A DNA stretch of 57,780 nt from Candidatus Poribacteria bacterium (GTDB lineage Bacteria > Poribacteria > WGA-4E > WGA-3G): positions 1 through 57,780 of the forward strand of contig JAPOZO010000099.1 in assembly GCA_026706025.1 (NCBI GenBank). Direction: 5' to 3'. A program made the position numbers and the translations under genes. How positions within the stretch are numbered: position 1 is the stretch's first letter; each line of letters starts with the position of its first letter. Shown one piece after another: positions 44,617 to 52,845 of the stretch. The notes under the pieces were generated by a model. It was given only the letters and a program-made list of their open reading frames with translations. It did no database searches and had not been told where the DNA came from.

Positions 44617-47121
44617 CTAACGCAGCTCCCATAGGAGAATTGTCCCGTCGTGGCTTCCACTGGCAATGGTGTTTCCATCTGGAGAAAACACTACGTTGTT
44701 AACACCCCCCGTATGTCCCGTGAGTGTTGCTATGTGTTCTCCTGTATTTGTGTCCCAGAACTGCACCGGTTTGTCCCTACTGCCAGTAAGCACTTTATCC
44801 CCATTCGGTGAGAACACAACACTGATGTACCTCAATTGAGGCGGTGTTTTAATTATAGTTTTCTGCTCTCCTTCGCGAACGTCCCACAGTCGAACCGACT
44901 TGTCGTCACTTGCACTTGCCAAAGTTGTACCATCCGACGAGAATGCGATGGAATTGGGACCTTGCGTATGTCCTTCAAGCGTTGTTATAATCTGCCTTGT
45001 TTGAACGTCCCACAATCGGATTGTTTTGTCATTACTGGCACTGGCGAGTGTTGCGCCGTCTGGAGAAAAGGCAACGCAATTGAGAGCTGCTGTATGTCCC
45101 CTGAGTGTGGCTATTTGTTGCCCTGTTTGTGCATCCCAAAAACAGACCGTTCCATCCCTACCGCCCGTAGCAATAGTGTTTCCATCGGGTGCGTATGCCA
45201 TAGATCTAAATGCGTCCGGATGCTTTACAATTGATGTTTCGGGCTTTCTTGTGTGTTCCTGCGATACATCATTGCCAGCATCCCACAAGCGGACTGTCCC
45301 ATCCCTACCGGCAGTAGCGATAGTATTCTCATCTGAGGCATAGACAACAGCAGTGATATAATTCGTGTGCCCTTTGAGTGTGGCTATTTTTTGTTTCGTT
45401 TGAACGTCCCATAAGGAACCGACTCCATTCCGATTCCCTGAAAGGATAGTTTTTCCATTCGGCGAATATGCCAAAGAAGTGAGACTACCCGCATAACCTT
45501 TGAACGTTGTTCTGTGTTTTCCTGTTTGAATATCCCACAACCGCACCGTATTGTCTGAACCAGCAGAAGCGAGCGTACTTCCATCTGGGGAAAACGCGAT
45601 GGATGGAACACCTCTGCTATGCCCTTCAAAGGTCGTTATAGGGTCGCCTGTTTGTATATCCCACAAGCGGACTGTATCATACGCGCCAGTAGCAAGAGTC
45701 GCGCCATCAGGCGAGAACGCTACTGTAAAGACATCTCCGTTATGTTCTTTGATCGTAATTTTATGTGTACCTGTCTGTTCGTCCAACAATTGCACTGCGT
45801 CAGGATAGGCAATGGCAAGGACTTTTCCATCCGGTGAATACGTAACAGAAGAGACCCGTCCCCAGTTTTCGTTGAGCGTAGATTTGTGTTCTCCTGTTTG
45901 TGGATCCCACAATTGCACCGTCTGGTCATTACTGCTGCTTGCGAGCGTGCTTCCATCCGGAGAAAATGCGACACAAGTGATCCGTTTCGTATGTCCTGTG
46001 AGTGTCGTTATATGTTCTCCTGTTTGGACATTCCACAATCTGACTTCCGGCACTATTTTTTCTATTTCTTCAATACTCCCATTGCCGGTGGCGAGCGTAC
46101 TTCCATCCGGAGAAAACGCTATTGCTGTGATAGTCCATGTATGTCCCATGAATGTGCCTACCTGCTTGCCCGTGTCTACATCCCATAAGCGTACAGTTTT
46201 GTCTGAACCGCCACTCGCGATAATAGTGCCATCTGGCGAAAAAGCAAGAACATTGACCACTTCTGTATCCCCTGTGAACAGATCAAGTTCTTTTTCTTCA
46301 CCGAGACGTACATCATAGATCCAAATCCCGATAGCACTTCCAACCGCGAGTCGTGTACCATCCGGCGAGAAAGCGATATTTCCTGTCATTTCGCCTTTAC
46401 CGAGACGTGCTTTCGCGCCTTCGGGCAGCCGCCATCGCGTGTAGTCTCCGGGATCAGATAAAACCTGATTTGATGCCTGCCCTGTGTTATTACCTCTCCC
46501 GGGAGTATCGGAATTTTCTCCTACTAAATTTCGGACATCCGGTTTTGCATTGTTGAGTGCCTCGCGAATCATCGGTTCCTCCTTTTTTAGACGTCGTCGG
46601 GCGCGACTGAGTCGACTTTTGATAGCACTTGCAGATACGCCTAAAAACCGGCTAATTTCTTCACACGTCATTTCACCAAAGTAGTAGAGTGTTATCACCG
46701 TTCGGTCACTCTCTTTTAATTTGGAGAGTAACTTTTTAACGACCTCGCGTTGTGTCTCTATTGATACTTTTGCTTGTTCCGCTGCGATATATTTGGAATA
46801 CGCGGCACCTTCTATTATGTCAATATCAGCATCTTCAAGGGATTCAGTTTCCAAGCGTCTCTTACGGAGCCATGCGCGGCATCGGCGCGTAGCAATTACA
46901 TAAAGCCACCCAGAAAACTGATTCGGATTTTTCAGAGTTGACAGGTTTTGATAGACTTTGAGAAAGGTATCCTGCGTAATCTCTTCAGCGATGTGGAAAT
47001 CGCCGATCTTTCGCCAAGCGAGTGAATGCACCTGCTTTCGGTATTTATTCACCAAATTCTCAAAAGCAGCATCATCACCCGCGAGGATTCTGTGTATCAG
47101 TTCAACATCGTTATTTTTCAT
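44617..47121 (-). CDS. ECF sigma factor fused to 14 WD40 repeats
   Basis: An 834-residue protein started at the ATG at 47121, behind GAGG six bases upstream (a TTG at 47133 lies in that site). Residues 1-180 are an ECF sigma factor: region 2 (FENLVNKYRKQVHSLAWRK, then AEEITQDTFLKVYQNL) and region 4 (ESDRTVITLYYFGEM, then GVSASAIKSRLSRARRRL). After a flexible linker (GENSDTPGRGNNTG) comes the same leader block as in secreted WD40 proteins (DYTRWRLPEGAKARLGKG), then 14 WD40 repeats. No membrane segment separates the parts, so the propellers are cytoplasmic, probably sensing or scaffolding. ECF-WD40 fusions are known from Planctomycetes-like bacteria. A matching promoter lies at 47155-47210. Confidence 0.88.
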   Translation of the reverse strand: MKNNDVELIHRILAGDDAAFENLVNKYRKQVHSLAWRKIGDFHIAEEITQDTFLKVYQNLSTLKNPNQFSGWLYVIATRRCRAWLRKRRLETESLEDADIDIIEGAAYSKYIAAEQAKVSIETQREVVKKLLSKLKESDRTVITLYYFGEMTCEEISRFLGVSASAIKSRLSRARRRLKKEEPMIREALNNAKPDVRNLVGENSDTPGRGNNTGQASNQVLSDPGDYTRWRLPEGAKARLGKGEMTGNIAFSPDGTRLAVGSAIGIWIYDVRLGEEKELDLFTGDTEVVNVLAFSPDGTIIASGGSDKTVRLWDVDTGKQVGTFMGHTWTITAIAFSPDGSTLATGNGSIEEIEKIVPEVRLWNVQTGEHITTLTGHTKRITCVAFSPDGSTLASSSNDQTVQLWDPQTGEHKSTLNENWGRVSSVTYSPDGKVLAIAYPDAVQLLDEQTGTHKITIKEHNGDVFTVAFSPDGATLATGAYDTVRLWDIQTGDPITTFEGHSRGVPSIAFSPDGSTLASAGSDNTVRLWDIQTGKHRTTFKGYAGSLTSLAYSPNGKTILSGNRNGVGSLWDVQTKQKIATLKGHTNYITAVVYASDENTIATAGRDGTVRLWDAGNDVSQEHTRKPETSIVKHPDAFRSMAYAPDGNTIATGGRDGTVCFWDAQTGQQIATLRGHTAALNCVAFSPDGATLASASNDKTIRLWDVQTRQIITTLEGHTQGPNSIAFSSDGTTLASASDDKSVRLWDVREGEQKTIIKTPPQLRYISVVFSPNGDKVLTGSRDKPVQFWDTNTGEHIATLTGHTGGVNNVVFSPDGNTIASGSHDGTILLWELR

Positions 47122-47154: not shown

Positions 47155-47210
47155 TCGTCTCAATATATAGTGACGCGGGGTAGAGCAAAAAGGTGGCATA
47201 ATTCAGAAAA
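47155..47210 (-). promoter_or_regulatory. ECF-type promoter repeat, copy 1, upstream of the sigma-WD40 gene
   Basis: On the minus strand: TGCCACCTTTTT then, 16 bases after the ACC (47192-47194), CGTC (47172-47175) followed by ACTATATA. This layout fits an ECF promoter (ACC-type -35, CGTC -10). The 56 bases match 50473-50528 at 53 positions. It lies 34 bases before the ATG of the sigma gene, so autoregulation is likely. Confidence 0.7.
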
Positions 47211-47219
47211 AATTATTTT

Positions 47220-48695
47220 TTATTCTATCTCTTTGCGCAGTAAAGAGAGAAAAGTACTAATGAACAGCACCAATAGGAACAGAATCAAAAGCAGTAGGTC
47301 AACGATTGCGGCATTAAAATCCGCGCTAAAGCGGTGTCGATCTTCAAATTTGGGGATGGCCTCGAAGTTCACAGGTTTCTGTGATGTACCTTCGGGGATG
47401 CCAATAGCGTGCGGACTCTCCGGATCTGTTCGATCTGTATCAATGAGGAACTGCCGAAACTGTTTCGCGTATTGGCGTGTTTGAGAGATGAAGTCTAAAT
47501 GGCGGGGCAAGCCGGTGCCTGCAAATGCTTCAAAAGCATACTGCACAACCGCTGCGGGTGAGACACGGGTCAGGGACCGAGCCGTTTGGATCTGACGGAG
47601 TTCGGTGGAGAGGTAATCTGCATGCAAGCGATCGCGTAATTCTGCGTCTTTATTGACGTATTCCGCCCCTAACGCTGTCGCGACCGTCGCAGGGATTTCT
47701 CGTCTCGGAGGTTCTTTAATCCGAGCAAAATAGCGTGTCTGTAAATCTTGACGCGAGTTCCGATACTGCGTCACGAATTCTTTCGGGGATGGCCGGGCGT
47801 GCAGGCGACTGCTAAGGGAGCCAAGCGCGTTTGGTGTCAGCACCACCCAAACCGTCCAGATCAATAGGAGGATGACCAGACTCGTTGAAGACTGTTTAGT
47901 AAGCGTCGAAACGAGGATGCCTAATAAAATGAAAATTGAGGTATAGACGAGCGCGACACAGACGATGACCCCCATCCGCATCCAATCGCTACCCTTGAAT
48001 TGAATGGCTTCAGAAAGATATATGATGGAAAGACTAACAATTGTTCCAATCAAAAAAGGGATGGCGATGCTAAAAAATGCGCCGAGAAACTTACCACAAA
48101 TCACGGCGTTCCGTGAAACGCTGTTTGCCAACATCAACCGCAGTGTTCCATGTTCTTGCTCACCAGAGATCGCATCAAACGTAAATAGAATGCCCATGAA
48201 ACTCAACACAATAGCCGTTACGAATGCCCAATCAATTTTGATAAAATCTGGCAGGATGCTCCACGTATTTGACCTGCGCGGTGAAAAAAATCCGAGATCG
48301 GGACTGGCTTGCGGATAGACTAATCGCCAGATTTCTGTGAACCGGTATGAGGTGTCTTCCCCTTCCCAACGGCGAGTTCGACTAGCGGTGCCGCCGCGAA
48401 CATGCCTAAACAAAAGGTCTGTTCCCCCATCTGCACAAAATGCTAAAGGGCTCGGTTTTTTATAGAGGTCGCCAGGCCCCTTTAACACCAAGTGATAGAG
48501 TGTGTCAGAATGCCGTTTCAGCCGGTTGTGCGTCGCCGCAACGTTGTTCTGATATATGTTCATTTGCTGCTTGTATTCTCCGAGATACGCAACAGCATTG
48601 ACGATCATCAGTATCAAAATCAATAACGTTGTCAGTGCAAAACGGAGGCTACTCAAGTGATCGTAGAGTTCACGTTTGACAATATGAAAAATCAT
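47220..48695 (-). CDS. ABC-2 type permease subunit, DUF3526-like (second gene)
   Basis: A 491-residue membrane protein started at the ATG at 48695, with GAGGA six bases upstream. The N-terminal helix (LTTLLILILMIVNAVAYLGEY) is followed by a 150-residue extracytoplasmic loop, then the characteristic FDAISGEQEHGTLRLMLANSVSRN-type segment (split: FDAISGEQEHGTL and MLANSVSR) and five further helices. A second extracytoplasmic domain precedes the last helix (LLLILFLLVLFISTFLSLL). It would form a heterodimer with the homologous permease just upstream. No ABC ATPase is in the window, so the energising subunit is elsewhere. The substrate is unknown. Confidence 0.8.
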   Translation of the reverse strand: MIFHIVKRELYDHLSSLRFALTTLLILILMIVNAVAYLGEYKQQMNIYQNNVAATHNRLKRHSDTLYHLVLKGPGDLYKKPSPLAFCADGGTDLLFRHVRGGTASRTRRWEGEDTSYRFTEIWRLVYPQASPDLGFFSPRRSNTWSILPDFIKIDWAFVTAIVLSFMGILFTFDAISGEQEHGTLRLMLANSVSRNAVICGKFLGAFFSIAIPFLIGTIVSLSIIYLSEAIQFKGSDWMRMGVIVCVALVYTSIFILLGILVSTLTKQSSTSLVILLLIWTVWVVLTPNALGSLSSRLHARPSPKEFVTQYRNSRQDLQTRYFARIKEPPRREIPATVATALGAEYVNKDAELRDRLHADYLSTELRQIQTARSLTRVSPAAVVQYAFEAFAGTGLPRHLDFISQTRQYAKQFRQFLIDTDRTDPESPHAIGIPEGTSQKPVNFEAIPKFEDRHRFSADFNAAIVDLLLLILFLLVLFISTFLSLLRKEIE

Positions 48696-48728
48696 CTTAT
48701 GTCCTCGGTGGAAGACGGTGTTTGAAGT

Positions 48729-48794
48729 GTTGGGTTTCACTCACACCTTTTCGAGGTTTGGTCCCTCTTTTCAGCTCCGTTCAACCCAACCTAC
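48729..48794. repeat. GTTGGGTT-type inverted repeat
   Basis: GTTGGGTTTCAC (48729-48740) and GTTCAACCCAACCTAC (48779-48794) form an inverted pair in the gap between the two permease genes. Related sequences lie at 56612-56845. Repeats of this wording are widespread in bacterial genomes. Confidence 0.65.
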
Positions 48795-48796
48795 AG

Positions 48797-50299
48797 CTAG
48801 ATTTCCTGCCTGACGAAAATGGCGAAGGTGGCAAGGAACAGCAGAATATTGAGTAATAGCAGCAACTGAAGATCGGGGAGTGCGCGTGAAGCGTTTGTCC
48901 AGAGACTGGCACGCTGATATACAAATCTCGGTAGATCATCTAAGTTGATGGTCCCTTTATCGCTGGCGAACCACTGTCGGCTTGAGAAGGCATCTTTATC
49001 ATAAAAGTAGTCAATCAGCGTGCGTCGATACTGCCTCGCGTCTTCAAAGAAATCGGTAACCCCATAAAGATCGGTTCCTGCCCACGCTTGTGTTGCGAGG
49101 TCATACATCGCGGCAGGGGAGAGCCGAAGCAGGTTTCGCGCTATTTTTGCTCGCCAAAACCGGGTCTGCTTGAATACCGGCATGCGCACCAAACCCATTT
49201 TCTCTGCGGCACGAATGCGTAGCGGTGTCAAGAATTGATGGTAGCGGATGGCGTGAGGAATAAATTTCTCGGATTCCGGGGTAATGACCCGCCAATCATA
49301 AGATTTAAACTCTATATGATTTGCTATCTCTAAGGCACTTACACCAATGTGTACCAAATACCTGTCCCTTAAGAAGCGGTCAATTTCTCCGTTGACTCCA
49401 TTGTTCTTAAGATATTCTCTCTCTTCTTTGTTAACTGTCTCTTGTATTTGCCAAATTGCGCCGAAACTGGAATTTATCTTACTATCTCGTTCACGGGTTA
49501 ACTGGCTGACCGCGAACACGCTAACGGAGGGATAGACCAATATCAGTACTACCCAGATGAATAGAGAGAGCATGAGTGCTGTGGCAGTGCGGTGCACCCC
49601 GGCGGAAATCAGCAGCCCGATCAAGTAGATAGCAGAGAGATAGATAATCGAAGTTAGCAAGATGCCTGCGATTCTCAGAAAATCGTCTCCACTGAAAAAG
49701 ATTGATCCTGATAAAACGATCCATATTAAGGCAATAGCGAAACTGATAATGAGCGGAAAAACCAGACAAATCATCGCGCCAAAGTATTTCGCTCCCAAGA
49801 TAGCACTTCGGCTTACCGGGTGGCTCATTGTGAGCCGCAATGTGCCGGCTTCGCGTTCTCCAGCAATCGCATCGTAGGCGAACAGTAACGCGAGTAGAGA
49901 AAGAACAAATTGAAAAATAAAGACTAAGTCAATTCGATAAAAATAATCAATGAAAAGGTTACCAGAGCCGTGGGACTCGGCATCCCAGAGGAGGGGCATG
50001 TTCGTGTAATAAATCCGCAGTGTATTGCCAAGCCGGTCGTCCATACCGGCATTAAAAATGCTTAACGGACTCGGCGGACGATCAATTTTTGGTCTCAAAT
50101 CAGAATAGGTTCGCGTGGACAGAAGTGCTTCACTGTGGACATTTCTGGCGGTATTGTAACCCGCCAACCGTTGCTCGTAGTCGTCAATTCTGATGAGCGT
50201 GGTTATGACAACGAGCAGCAGGCAGACGATCACCGTAATTGCAAAACGAAATGTTATCAGATGCGCGAGAATCTCACGCCTCAGTAGCACTAAAAACAT
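48797..50299 (-). CDS. ABC-2 type permease subunit, DUF3526-like (first gene)
   Basis: A 500-residue membrane protein started at the ATG at 50299, with GAGGA eight bases upstream (a TTG at 50320 is the only longer alternative). The layout parallels the gene at 47220-48695: one N-terminal helix (FAITVIVCLLLVVITTLI), an extracytoplasmic region, FAYDAIAGEREAGTLRLTMSHPVSRSAILGAKYFGAM in its conserved core (here split as AGEREAGTLRLT and SHPVSRSA), multiple helices and a last one (LLLLLNILLFLATFAIF). The two permeases are paralogues expected to work together. Two ECF-type promoters lie upstream at 50398-50430 and 50473-50528. The transporter's substrate is unknown. Confidence 0.8.
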   Translation of the reverse strand: MFLVLLRREILAHLITFRFAITVIVCLLLVVITTLIRIDDYEQRLAGYNTARNVHSEALLSTRTYSDLRPKIDRPPSPLSIFNAGMDDRLGNTLRIYYTNMPLLWDAESHGSGNLFIDYFYRIDLVFIFQFVLSLLALLFAYDAIAGEREAGTLRLTMSHPVSRSAILGAKYFGAMICLVFPLIISFAIALIWIVLSGSIFFSGDDFLRIAGILLTSIIYLSAIYLIGLLISAGVHRTATALMLSLFIWVVLILVYPSVSVFAVSQLTRERDSKINSSFGAIWQIQETVNKEEREYLKNNGVNGEIDRFLRDRYLVHIGVSALEIANHIEFKSYDWRVITPESEKFIPHAIRYHQFLTPLRIRAAEKMGLVRMPVFKQTRFWRAKIARNLLRLSPAAMYDLATQAWAGTDLYGVTDFFEDARQYRRTLIDYFYDKDAFSSRQWFASDKGTINLDDLPRFVYQRASLWTNASRALPDLQLLLLLNILLFLATFAIFVRQEI

Positions 50300-50397
50300 C
50301 GAACGATTCCTCAGTGTCAATCCAATTTTCTCATAGGATTAATGTAAAATCTTCGTTTTTCATCAAAAAACCCAGAAAGCGTATTTTTCTTCGCTTG

Positions 50398-50430
50398 TAT
50401 ATAAAGACGCGAGTTATGTGACAAAAGGTG
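50398..50430 (-). promoter_or_regulatory. ECF-type promoter, copy 3
   Basis: On the minus strand: TGCACCTTTTG, then 17 bases after ACC (50427-50429) CGTC (50406-50409) followed by TTTATATA. The wording matches the two longer copies, but this site is otherwise diverged. It lies 99 bases before the first permease ATG. Confidence 0.6.
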
Positions 50431-50472
50431 CATGATTTAAAGACGAAGTTAAGAAGGATAACTTGATCGCTG

Positions 50473-50528
50473 TCGTCTCAATATATAGTGACGCGGGTTC
50501 GGGCAAAAAGGTGGCATAATTCAGAAAA
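50473..50528 (-). promoter_or_regulatory. ECF-type promoter repeat, copy 2
   Basis: Fifty-six bases match the sigma gene promoter at 47155-47210 at 53 positions, with ACC at 50510-50512 and CGTC at 50490-50493 separated by 16. It lies downstream of the WD40 gene stop and upstream of the permease genes, reading toward them. The gap 50300-50665 holds this site, copy 3 and no gene. Confidence 0.7.
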
Positions 50529-50665: not shown

Positions 50666-52549
50666 CTAACGTATTTTCCACAGAAGAATCGTGCCATCGT
50701 CGCTGCTACTGGCGAGCATGTTTCTATCGGGAGAGAATGCTACAGAAGTAACACCTTCTGTATGTCCTGAGAATGTGGCAAGGTGTGTTCCTGTTTTCGC
50801 GTCCCACAATCGCACTGTTTTGTCCTCACTGCCAGTCGCTATTTTGGTGCCATCATGAGAATATGCTATGGAACGGATAACACTTGTATGCCCTGAGAAT
50901 GTAGCGATGTGCTTTCCGGTGCTCACGTCCCATAACCACACTGCGTGGTTGTTGGCACTGGAAATGCCAGTAGCGAGCGTTTCTGCATCCGGCGAATAGG
51001 CTATCGACAGGACCACACCTTGAAATTTAGGGAAAGTCGCAATGTGTTTGCCTGTCTGTGGGTCCCACAACCGAACTGTTGCGTCGGCACTCGCAGTTGC
51101 GAGGGTCGTCCCATCCGGGGCATACGCTATAGACAGGACTGAACTCGTATGCCCAGTGAGTGTGGCGATGCGTTTTCCAGATTGTGCGTCCCACAGGCGC
51201 GCTGTCTTGTCCCGGCTGGCGGTTGCAAGCGTGCGCGCAATCGGAGAAAATGCAACAGAATAGATAAAGCTCGTATGTCCTGTGAGTGTGGTAACGTGTT
51301 CCCAAGTTTGTGCGTTCGATAACCGCAACTTTCCATCTCTACCACCCGTAGCAATTATTTTGCCATTCGGAGAATATGCCACAGCAAAGACATCACGCAC
51401 ATGCTCCGAAAGCGTGGTTTTGTGCGCGCCTGTGCGTGCGTCCCAGAGTTGTGATGTCCCTCTGCCTGCAGTGAAACCACCGCTGGCAATAGTTCCACCG
51501 TCCGGTGAATACGCTATGGCGGATATTGACCGCGTATGCCCTGAGAACGTCGCAATGTGTTTTCCTGTTTTTGCGTTCCATAACCGGACTGTGTCGTCTG
51601 CACTTGCGGTAGCGATCATTTTGCCATCAGGGGAATATACGATGGAATGGACAACAGCCGTGTGTCCTCTCAGTGCAGCTTTGTGCCGTCCAGAGTATGC
51701 GCTCCACAACCGCGCCGTACCGTCCCAATTTCCAGTAGCGAGCGTTTTGCCATCAGGGGAATACACGACAGCACGGAACCCATCTGTGGGCCGTCTCAGT
51801 GTTTTTTTACGTTGCCCAGTCATCGCGTCCCACAACCGTACTGTTTTGTCATTACTGCCAGTCGCAAGCGTTTTGCCATCAGGGGAATACGCTACAGCAT
51901 CAATACGGCTCGTGTGCTCTGTTAGTGTGGTTTTGAGTTTTCCAGTTTGGGTATCCCACAAACAGGCAGTATTGTCCCGACTGCCAGTCGCAAGCGTTTT
52001 GCCATCGGGCGAAAATGTTACAGACATGACATGACCCGAATGCCCTGAAAGTGTGGTTTTGTGCTGTCCTGTGTGTGCGTCCCATAAGCGTGCTGTGTTG
52101 TCCCAACTGCCAGTCGCAAGCGTTTTGCCATCAGGGGAATACGCGAGAGAATAGATAGCATTCGTATGTCCTTGAAGCGTCGTTTGGCGTTCCCCCGTGA
52201 CGGCATTCCACAGGTTCACTGTTCCATCGTTGCTGCTACTCGCCGCGATTGTGCTGGCATCTGGAGAATATGCTATAGATAGGATTCGCTGCGTGTGACC
52301 AGCAATCAAATCAAGTTCTTTTTCTTTGTCGGGACGTACATCGTAGATCCAAATCCCGATAGCACTACCAACCGCAAGCCGTGTACCGTCTGGTGAGAAC
52401 GCGATATTTACGCCTTTGCTACCTTTACTAAGACGCATTGTCGCTCCATCGGGTAAACTCCATTTTGTATAATCTTGAGCGGTTGCGCTTGGCAGCAAGA
52501 GGAGAAAAGTTAAAAGTAGGGTGATGAGGTATAGGCGTGTCGTTTTCAT
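50666..52549 (-). CDS. Secreted 14-repeat WD40 protein
   Basis: A 627-residue protein started at the ATG at 52549 (a TTG directly before it is less likely). A signal peptide (LYLITLLLTFLLLLPSATA) is followed by DYTKWSLPDGATMRLSKG and 14 WD40 repeats (for example HTNAIYSLAYSPDGKTLATG and TVRLWDAMTG), enough for two seven-bladed propellers. It ends directly after the last repeat without dockerin. The WD40 part resembles that of the sigma fusion closely (both have SAIGIWIYDVR). The protein is therefore the exported counterpart of the cytoplasmic sigma-linked propellers, in a cluster with two permeases. Its ligand is unknown. Confidence 0.88.
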   Translation of the reverse strand: MKTTRLYLITLLLTFLLLLPSATAQDYTKWSLPDGATMRLSKGSKGVNIAFSPDGTRLAVGSAIGIWIYDVRPDKEKELDLIAGHTQRILSIAYSPDASTIAASSSNDGTVNLWNAVTGERQTTLQGHTNAIYSLAYSPDGKTLATGSWDNTARLWDAHTGQHKTTLSGHSGHVMSVTFSPDGKTLATGSRDNTACLWDTQTGKLKTTLTEHTSRIDAVAYSPDGKTLATGSNDKTVRLWDAMTGQRKKTLRRPTDGFRAVVYSPDGKTLATGNWDGTARLWSAYSGRHKAALRGHTAVVHSIVYSPDGKMIATASADDTVRLWNAKTGKHIATFSGHTRSISAIAYSPDGGTIASGGFTAGRGTSQLWDARTGAHKTTLSEHVRDVFAVAYSPNGKIIATGGRDGKLRLSNAQTWEHVTTLTGHTSFIYSVAFSPIARTLATASRDKTARLWDAQSGKRIATLTGHTSSVLSIAYAPDGTTLATASADATVRLWDPQTGKHIATFPKFQGVVLSIAYSPDAETLATGISSANNHAVWLWDVSTGKHIATFSGHTSVIRSIAYSHDGTKIATGSEDKTVRLWDAKTGTHLATFSGHTEGVTSVAFSPDRNMLASSSDDGTILLWKIR

Positions 52550-52845
52550 CAAAAGTTGCTATGAAATTTTGTGTATAGGGGTCAGTTATCAGTTTTTGGT
52601 TGTCAGTTATCAGTAGTTAGTATGCAGCTGAGACAAAGGTTGCCTCTATTAAGCTGAAATAGAAATGATAAATGTTTTTCCGAAATAATGATATTTTTAG
52701 ATAGCCATAACTCCTGACCGTGTCTCGGTTCAACGCGAATATCATAACGGAGTCATGATAGGATCATAGTGCCTTGTTCGTTTGATATTTTGTGTTGAAG
52801 TTTCCGATGCGATCTGCGGTAAAAAAGTTACCAATCTGGTTAGAA

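Follow-up and report, generated by a model that had tools for sequence, protein, structure and literature searches.

Three ECF-type promoters at a sigma-WD40 and permease locus and their promoter class in a genus of Poribacteria

The window, i.e. the whole stretch of DNA that was analysed, comprises 57,780 nucleotides of a Candidatus Poribacteria genome (assembly GCA_026706025.1, contig JAPOZO010000099.1). Its minus strand carries a gene for an extracytoplasmic function (ECF) sigma factor fused to WD40 propellers and a pair of ABC-2 type permease genes. Three look-alike promoters accompany these genes, one upstream of the sigma gene (promoter 1) and two upstream of the permease pair (promoters 2 and 3; Table 1). 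They belong to a promoter class that is tied to sigma genes and to gene starts, is conserved in the genus, covaries in its bases with residues of the sigma proteins, and stands with two scars upstream of the permease gene.

Promoters and genes of the locus

A preliminary description of this DNA had placed three ECF-type promoters on the minus strand, one before the sigma-WD40 gene and two before the permease pair, and this placement was borne out. The boxes of promoters 1, 2 and 3 are spaced ACC-N16/16/17-CGTC. The pattern CACCTTTT-N10-CGCGTC was located on the minus strand at 47195-47172 (promoter 1) and 50513-50490 (promoter 2), and CACCTTTT-N11-CGCGTC at 50430-50406 (promoter 3). Measured against an AAC-like -35 box, a CGT -10 box and a gap of 16-17 base pairs (bp), the sites are of the ECF type, and they lie at gene starts. 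The -35 core is ACC in the window and AAC or ACC across the promoter family. Transcription from promoter 1 would start a few bases beyond the -10 box.

The 56-mers 47210-47155 and 50528-50473 differed at three positions, confirming the reported identity of 53/56. The description of all three sites as near-identical holds for promoters 1 and 2 but not for promoter 3, which is no copy of them: its A at -33 and its -10 and downstream sequence match a different sigma branch, represented by a broken sigma gene on contig C60. No other strong sites were present in the window (scores 32-34, next best 15.2). The strict pattern CACCTTTT-N10/11-CGCGTC occurred five times in the 6.27-Mb genome, three times inside the window, and one of the two outside matches precedes another ECF sigma gene.

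In the sigma-WD40 protein, sigma2 is encoded at about 47055-46855, sigma4 spans about residues 126-178 and the WD40 part (E 5e-132) about residues 285-833; no transmembrane helix was found in the linker. No anti-sigma factor was seen at the window locus, and no ABC ATPase among the open reading frames (ORFs) immediately flanking the permease pair. The permeases scored 30 and 23 bits against the model of the gliding permease GldF (TIGR03518, cut-off 288.5). Their family is strongly expanded, with 62 matches in the genome, often adjoining fusion sigma genes. Seven of the 17 best-listed permease paralogues have a same-strand fusion sigma gene no more than 3 kb away (P 2e-6, uniform placement); the link between sigma genes and these permeases thus extends beyond the window locus.

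The WD40 protein encoded upstream of the permeases has a lead-in, DYTKWSLPDGATMRLSKG, in common with the WD40 part of the sigma factor (DYTRWRLPEGAKARLGKG), and a relation of the two by duplication or fusion is therefore likely.

Table 1. Features of the sigma-WD40 and permease locus, and loci of further sigma fusions
Feature	Position	Strand	Remarks
ECF sigma factor fused to WD40 propellers	44617..47121	-	ATG at 47121
Promoter 1, sigma gene	47155..47210	-	-35 TGCCACC 47198-47192; -10 CGTC 47175-47172
ABC-2 type permease B	47220..48695	-	ATG at 48695; ABC2_membrane_2, DUF3526
ABC-2 type permease A	48797..50299	-	ATG at 50299; ABC2_membrane_2, DUF3526
Putative decayed sigma start	50331..50363	-	ATG...TGA = MKNEDFTLIL*; resembles sigma N-terminus (consensus MKNDDVQLIQRIL)
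Promoter 3, proximal permease promoter	50398..50437	-	TGCACC ... CGTC; profile 21.3 bits, E 0.0016
Promoter 2, distal permease promoter	50473..50528	-	profile 30.2 bits, E 2.3e-6
WD40 protein upstream of permeases	50666..52552	-	signal-peptide-like N-terminus; position kept at syntenic locus
PurC, PnrA/Bmp, AhpC/TSA, M61 and S9 sigma fusions	L093:5110-6618, L087:1435-2955, L068, L057, L090:14885-18178, L067, L078:1960-4770

The promoter class in the genome and the genus

The genome contains 83 matches to sigma-70 region 2, and its ECF genes comprise 55 with long C-terminal extensions and 26 short ones. Pfam Sigma70_r2 and r4_2 were both found in all 55 long members, as expected of ECF (group IV) sigma factors, which bind promoters through sigma2 and sigma4 alone. 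An expectation-maximisation motif search seeded from the window sites yielded TGCA(A/C)CYTTT - 11 or 12 bp - (T/C)GCGTCAYTA, positioned about 120-340 bp upstream of the sigma2 domain. The motif was present upstream of 44-46 of the 55 long ECF genes, compared with 3 of the 26 short ones; shuffled upstream regions mostly scored below 10 bits.

A calibrated profile was then built from 43 sites upstream of the fusion-type ECF sigma genes of the genome. It retrieved 115 sites of at least 15.2 bits, while the reversed-profile control gave 4, the best at 14.0 bits. Fifty of the sites precede sigma genes, most training sites included, and 65, all outside the training set, lie elsewhere. Only two of these 65 fell inside an ORF of at least 150 residues, compared with 71% of positions drawn at random from these stretches. 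Many copies unrelated to gene starts, which the preliminary description had taken as the mark of a mere repeat, were thus not found, and that reading was rejected. A looser pattern scan of the genome gave 21 matches versus 31 in its reversed control; pattern scans by themselves were therefore weak, and only the profile, which takes in flanks and spacing, was relied on. Judged by names read from the ORF sequences, the targets include ABC-2 permeases, ABC ATPases, a MoxR-type ATPase, secreted propeller proteins and sigma-54-type AAA+ genes.

Sites with E<=0.01 numbered 18-100 per genome in each of the 18 genus genomes analysed, among them that of the window, and 0-2 in 12 genomes from other families of the order; these counts are lower bounds, the best 150 candidates per genome having been scored, and the E-values are rough. 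In another species (G044, contig JAJDTM010000055), whose sigma factor is 58% identical, promoters 1-3 were all present and the order was intact: WD40 gene, two promoters, permease A, permease B, promoter, sigma-WD40 gene. Both permease promoters were retained in G006 (permease 96% identical), with longer intervening DNA. Promoter 1 was kept upstream of the orthologous sigma gene in five other assemblies; its conservation was seen in L124, L126, L127 and L131. At orthologous loci all three promoters were maintained and the DNA between them had diverged.

The duplication proposed in the preliminary description is real, but its supposed recent date was rejected: the duplication is old, because promoters 1-3 stand at the syntenic locus of G044. 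Whether promoters 1 and 2 evolve in concert inside a genome was also considered; G015 (3 differences) hinted at it, but the picture was not clear in the window's own genome (G000) or in G044, and no such claim is made.

Other copies of the class in G000 were also noted. A near-identical cassette is found at C93:56157, C63:130592, C63:204123, C61:27277, C34:92313 and C101:3538; several copies precede sigma-54-type AAA+ genes and one a short ECF gene, and the cassette seems to have spread recently. Two near-identical tandem promoter pairs lie at C52:244923+245041 and C20:116479+116574, one of them before a fusion sigma gene.

The extensions of the long ECF proteins are diverse. In about 39 of the 55 (G000) a membrane helix is predicted around residue 221, directly after sigma4, often followed by BNR/sortilin-like propellers; these would be membrane-tethered sigma factors with an outer sensor, whereas the window sigma factor lacks the helix. 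A fusion to the DNA polymerase III beta clamp (L094:3040-4767, G000:C60:136302 region; 576 residues in one frame) was full-length and without a frame break in 17 of the 20 genomes of the genus (61-100% identity); one further genome had it at 38%. An ECF sigma-FtsZ fusion (L114:7483-8673, C94) was full length in 18 of 20 genomes. A longer fusion of sigma, FtsZ and a DNA polymerase III alpha-like part (L105:1435-5460, C77; 1342 residues) had FtsZ-containing counterparts with frames of 1349-1758 residues in 15 of 20. Since the same genome has a stand-alone FtsZ on C83 and three stand-alone DnaN matches, the fused FtsZ and beta-clamp copies are extra, and the FtsZ copies could be sensors or decoys. 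Further fusions involve SAICAR synthetase (PurC), a PnrA/Bmp substrate-binding protein, AhpC/TSA redoxins (two), M61 peptidases (two) and an S9 peptidase with a PD40 propeller.

Covariation with sigma residues and probable origin of the permease promoters

Mutual information was calculated for every sigma column against every promoter column in 41 sigma-promoter pairs of the same genome. The highest values for the -35 region were obtained for -34 with residue 169 (z 18.4), -33 with 166 (z 13.8), -33 with 169 (z 12.4) and -31 with 168 (z 10.1). C at -34 was paired with S169 in 32 of 33 pairs, while S169 occurred in none of the eight pairs with other bases at -34. Among 35 held-out pairs from other genomes, some of them orthologues of training genes, the C-34/S169 pairing was seen in 28/28 and other bases went with other residues in 7/7. 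In an ungapped alignment with Bacillus subtilis SigW (PDB 5wuq, offset +2), residues 166, 168 and 169 correspond to T168, K170 and T171. In the crystal structure of SigW with its -35 element, T171 contacts the A-34 base, T168 its backbone, and K170 contacts G'-31 (PMC6713349). The SigZ promoter has C-34 opposite a serine at the equivalent position (PMC6713349), the same pairing as in the Poribacteria family. When independence was assessed on a tree built without the covarying columns, CG in the -10 box went with residue 83 in seven independent pairs (sign test, p 0.016).

Because own-promoter bases covary with contact residues of the own sigma factor, positive autoregulation, in which each sigma would read the promoter of its own gene, has good but not conclusive support. 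The window sigma factor carries A166, K168 and S169. In promoters 1 and 2, positions -34, -33 and -31 are all C, the one at -33 being unusual; the window sigma factor very probably fits these two. At -33 promoter 3 instead carries the base that accompanies T166, an A, and it would be a better fit for a T166-type paralogue, which would imply a split in specificity between sites 2 and 3. The earlier proposal that the sigma factor drives itself and the permeases thus very probably stands for promoters 1 and 2.

Both permease promoters look like decayed 5' ends of sigma genes from two different sigma branches. Behind the distal promoter of G006 lies a copy of the 5' 105 bp of the sigma gene, 91% identical to it and reaching past the ribosome site to include a start codon that is broken. 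Promoter 3, together with its downstream bases, matched the 5' end of the broken sigma gene on C60 at 45 of 47 positions in the best stretch. The short frame behind promoter 3, MKNEDFTLIL*, could be aligned to the C60 sigma remnant and scored 8.0 with the N-terminus profile (best of 130 controls, 3.7); it is probably the scar of the sigma copy that carried promoter 3 in. Apart from the window locus and the C60 remnant, no sigma-start scars were found after other non-sigma promoters; seeding of promoters by sigma remnants is therefore seen at the window locus only.

Interpretation and comparison with known systems

The explanation that we hold to be probable as a whole combines self-read ECF promoters, a window sigma factor reading promoters 1 and 2, a T166-type paralogue reading promoter 3, and an origin of the permease promoters from sigma 5' ends. 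Several results weigh against it. About 10 of the 55 long ECF genes lack a clear motif or score weakly. Few independent lineages underlie the -35 rules (4-5 for S169, all agreeing, p 0.125), and the whole -35 box does not track sigma distance (Mantel r 0.007). Furthermore, the sigma gene of G005 retains its promoter yet has no permeases alongside, so that the coupling is not universal.

The sites might instead be copies of a repeat or mobile element travelling with sigma genes without a promoter role. Some copies are indeed near-identical over more than 50 bp and clearly duplicated, and C93, C63, C61, C34 and C101 have one cassette in common; but both boxes and their spacing are maintained while the flanks diverge, the sites keep to gene starts, and their bases covary with DNA-contact residues of the adjoining sigma factor, making this extremely unlikely. 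It is also very unlikely that all fusion-sigma genes answer to one common sigma factor, housekeeping or another stand-alone ECF type, rather than to their own products: there are 26 short ECF genes to choose from, three of them with the motif themselves, but a single regulator would leave no covariation between the promoters and the recognition helices of the products.

A more serious competitor, although still a doubtful one, is that the promoters are real but read collectively, the paralogues cross-activating one another in one global regulon without local wiring. The consensus TGCA(A/C)CYTTT-N-GCGTC is common to about 50 sigma factors, and with a -35 box shared by many paralogues and untied to sigma distance, cross-activation is possible. 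However, the -10 box does track sigma distance (Mantel r 0.475), the residue-base rules predict differences, and the rare C at -33 in promoters 1 and 2 accompanies A166 of the window sigma factor and its orthologues. The local regulon of the preliminary description therefore survives in part, for the sigma gene itself and the distal permease promoter, but the class is not local: some 50 paralogous sigma genes have it, as do no fewer than 65 sites elsewhere, so cross-talk is possible.

Autoregulation and AAC/CGT boxes are hallmarks of ECF sigma factors (PMC8103513). The window agrees with autoregulated group IV members in the CGTC -10 box, the ACC/AAC-type -35 box, the 16-17 bp gap and a promoter before the sigma factor's own gene; it differs in that no anti-sigma factor was seen and that about 50 paralogues in one genome have one promoter class. 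The recognition code of Todor et al. (2020), as set out in PMC8103513, matches sigma2 and sigma4 residues position by position to own-promoter bases of autoregulated ECF sigma factors; the matching seen here is of the same kind, within one genus-level expansion.

The best PDB matches of the sigma part were SigW (5wuq, E 7e-25), SigH and SigE. The SigW -35 element GAAACCT is close to GCAACCT, and positions -34 and -31 seem to be read by equivalent residues in both, but -34 is C in the family studied here and SigW has no WD40 part. The NCBIfam SigW equivalog cut-offs were not reached (106 bits vs 209, 103 vs 243). ECF57 contains WD40-extended members with a conserved pair of cysteines linking sigma2 and sigma4, for example in Singulisphaera acidiphila (PMC8999054). 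The window sigma factor resembles them in its C-terminal WD40 extension, and its C81 (sigma2) and C153 (sigma4) may correspond to that pair. It differs in its host, Poribacteria, and in that most of its family have other extensions, many with a transmembrane helix. A cysteine was present at the C81 position in 53 of 55 members and at the C153 position in 11 of 55. By architecture ECF57 appears to be the closest described group, but the cysteine pair does not seem to be a feature of the Poribacteria family, and membership of ECF57 is therefore not claimed.

In the proposed mechanism, each site would serve as a promoter for one of an ECF sigma family that has grown to about 50 fusion-type proteins in this genome, and most family genes would have their own upstream promoter read by their own product, as the residue-base covariation suggests. 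The window sigma-WD40 protein would bind RNA polymerase and activate its own gene from promoter 1 and the permease pair from promoter 2. A T166-type paralogue would preferentially read promoter 3, so that the permeases receive input from at least two sigma factors. Copies of sigma-gene 5' ends would have landed upstream of the permease gene and decayed to promoter plus scar. From the sequences we infer that the sites are transcribed, that the WD40 part may act as gate or sensor of the sigma factor, and that the permeases may be effectors; the coupling of WD40 sensing to a membrane transporter, put forward in the preliminary description, is likewise hypothetical.

More tentatively, the genus may possess a network in which one promoter class drives about 50 sigma fusions that activate themselves. 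As sensors or decoys it would use their C-terminal parts: membrane-anchored propellers, WD40 domains, and additional copies of FtsZ, the beta clamp, DnaE and PurC. The regulon might grow by the deposition of sigma 5'-end copies at new genes, the coding part decaying and the promoter with matching specificity staying. Two things appear to be new: that about 50 fusion sigma factors of one genus have a single promoter class in common, and that a regulon grows through copies of sigma 5' ends. An incomplete literature search found no publication dealing with sigma fusions of Poribacteria or with the promoters of such fusions.

About 50 paralogues in one genome with one promoter class, conserved across a sponge-associated genus, amount to a natural experiment: they allow one to ask how regulators so alike are kept apart or become one. 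The pair of scars ahead of the permease gene points to a concrete route by which a copied regulator 5' end may create new regulon targets, and the residue-base rules provide specific, testable predictions for an uncultured organism.

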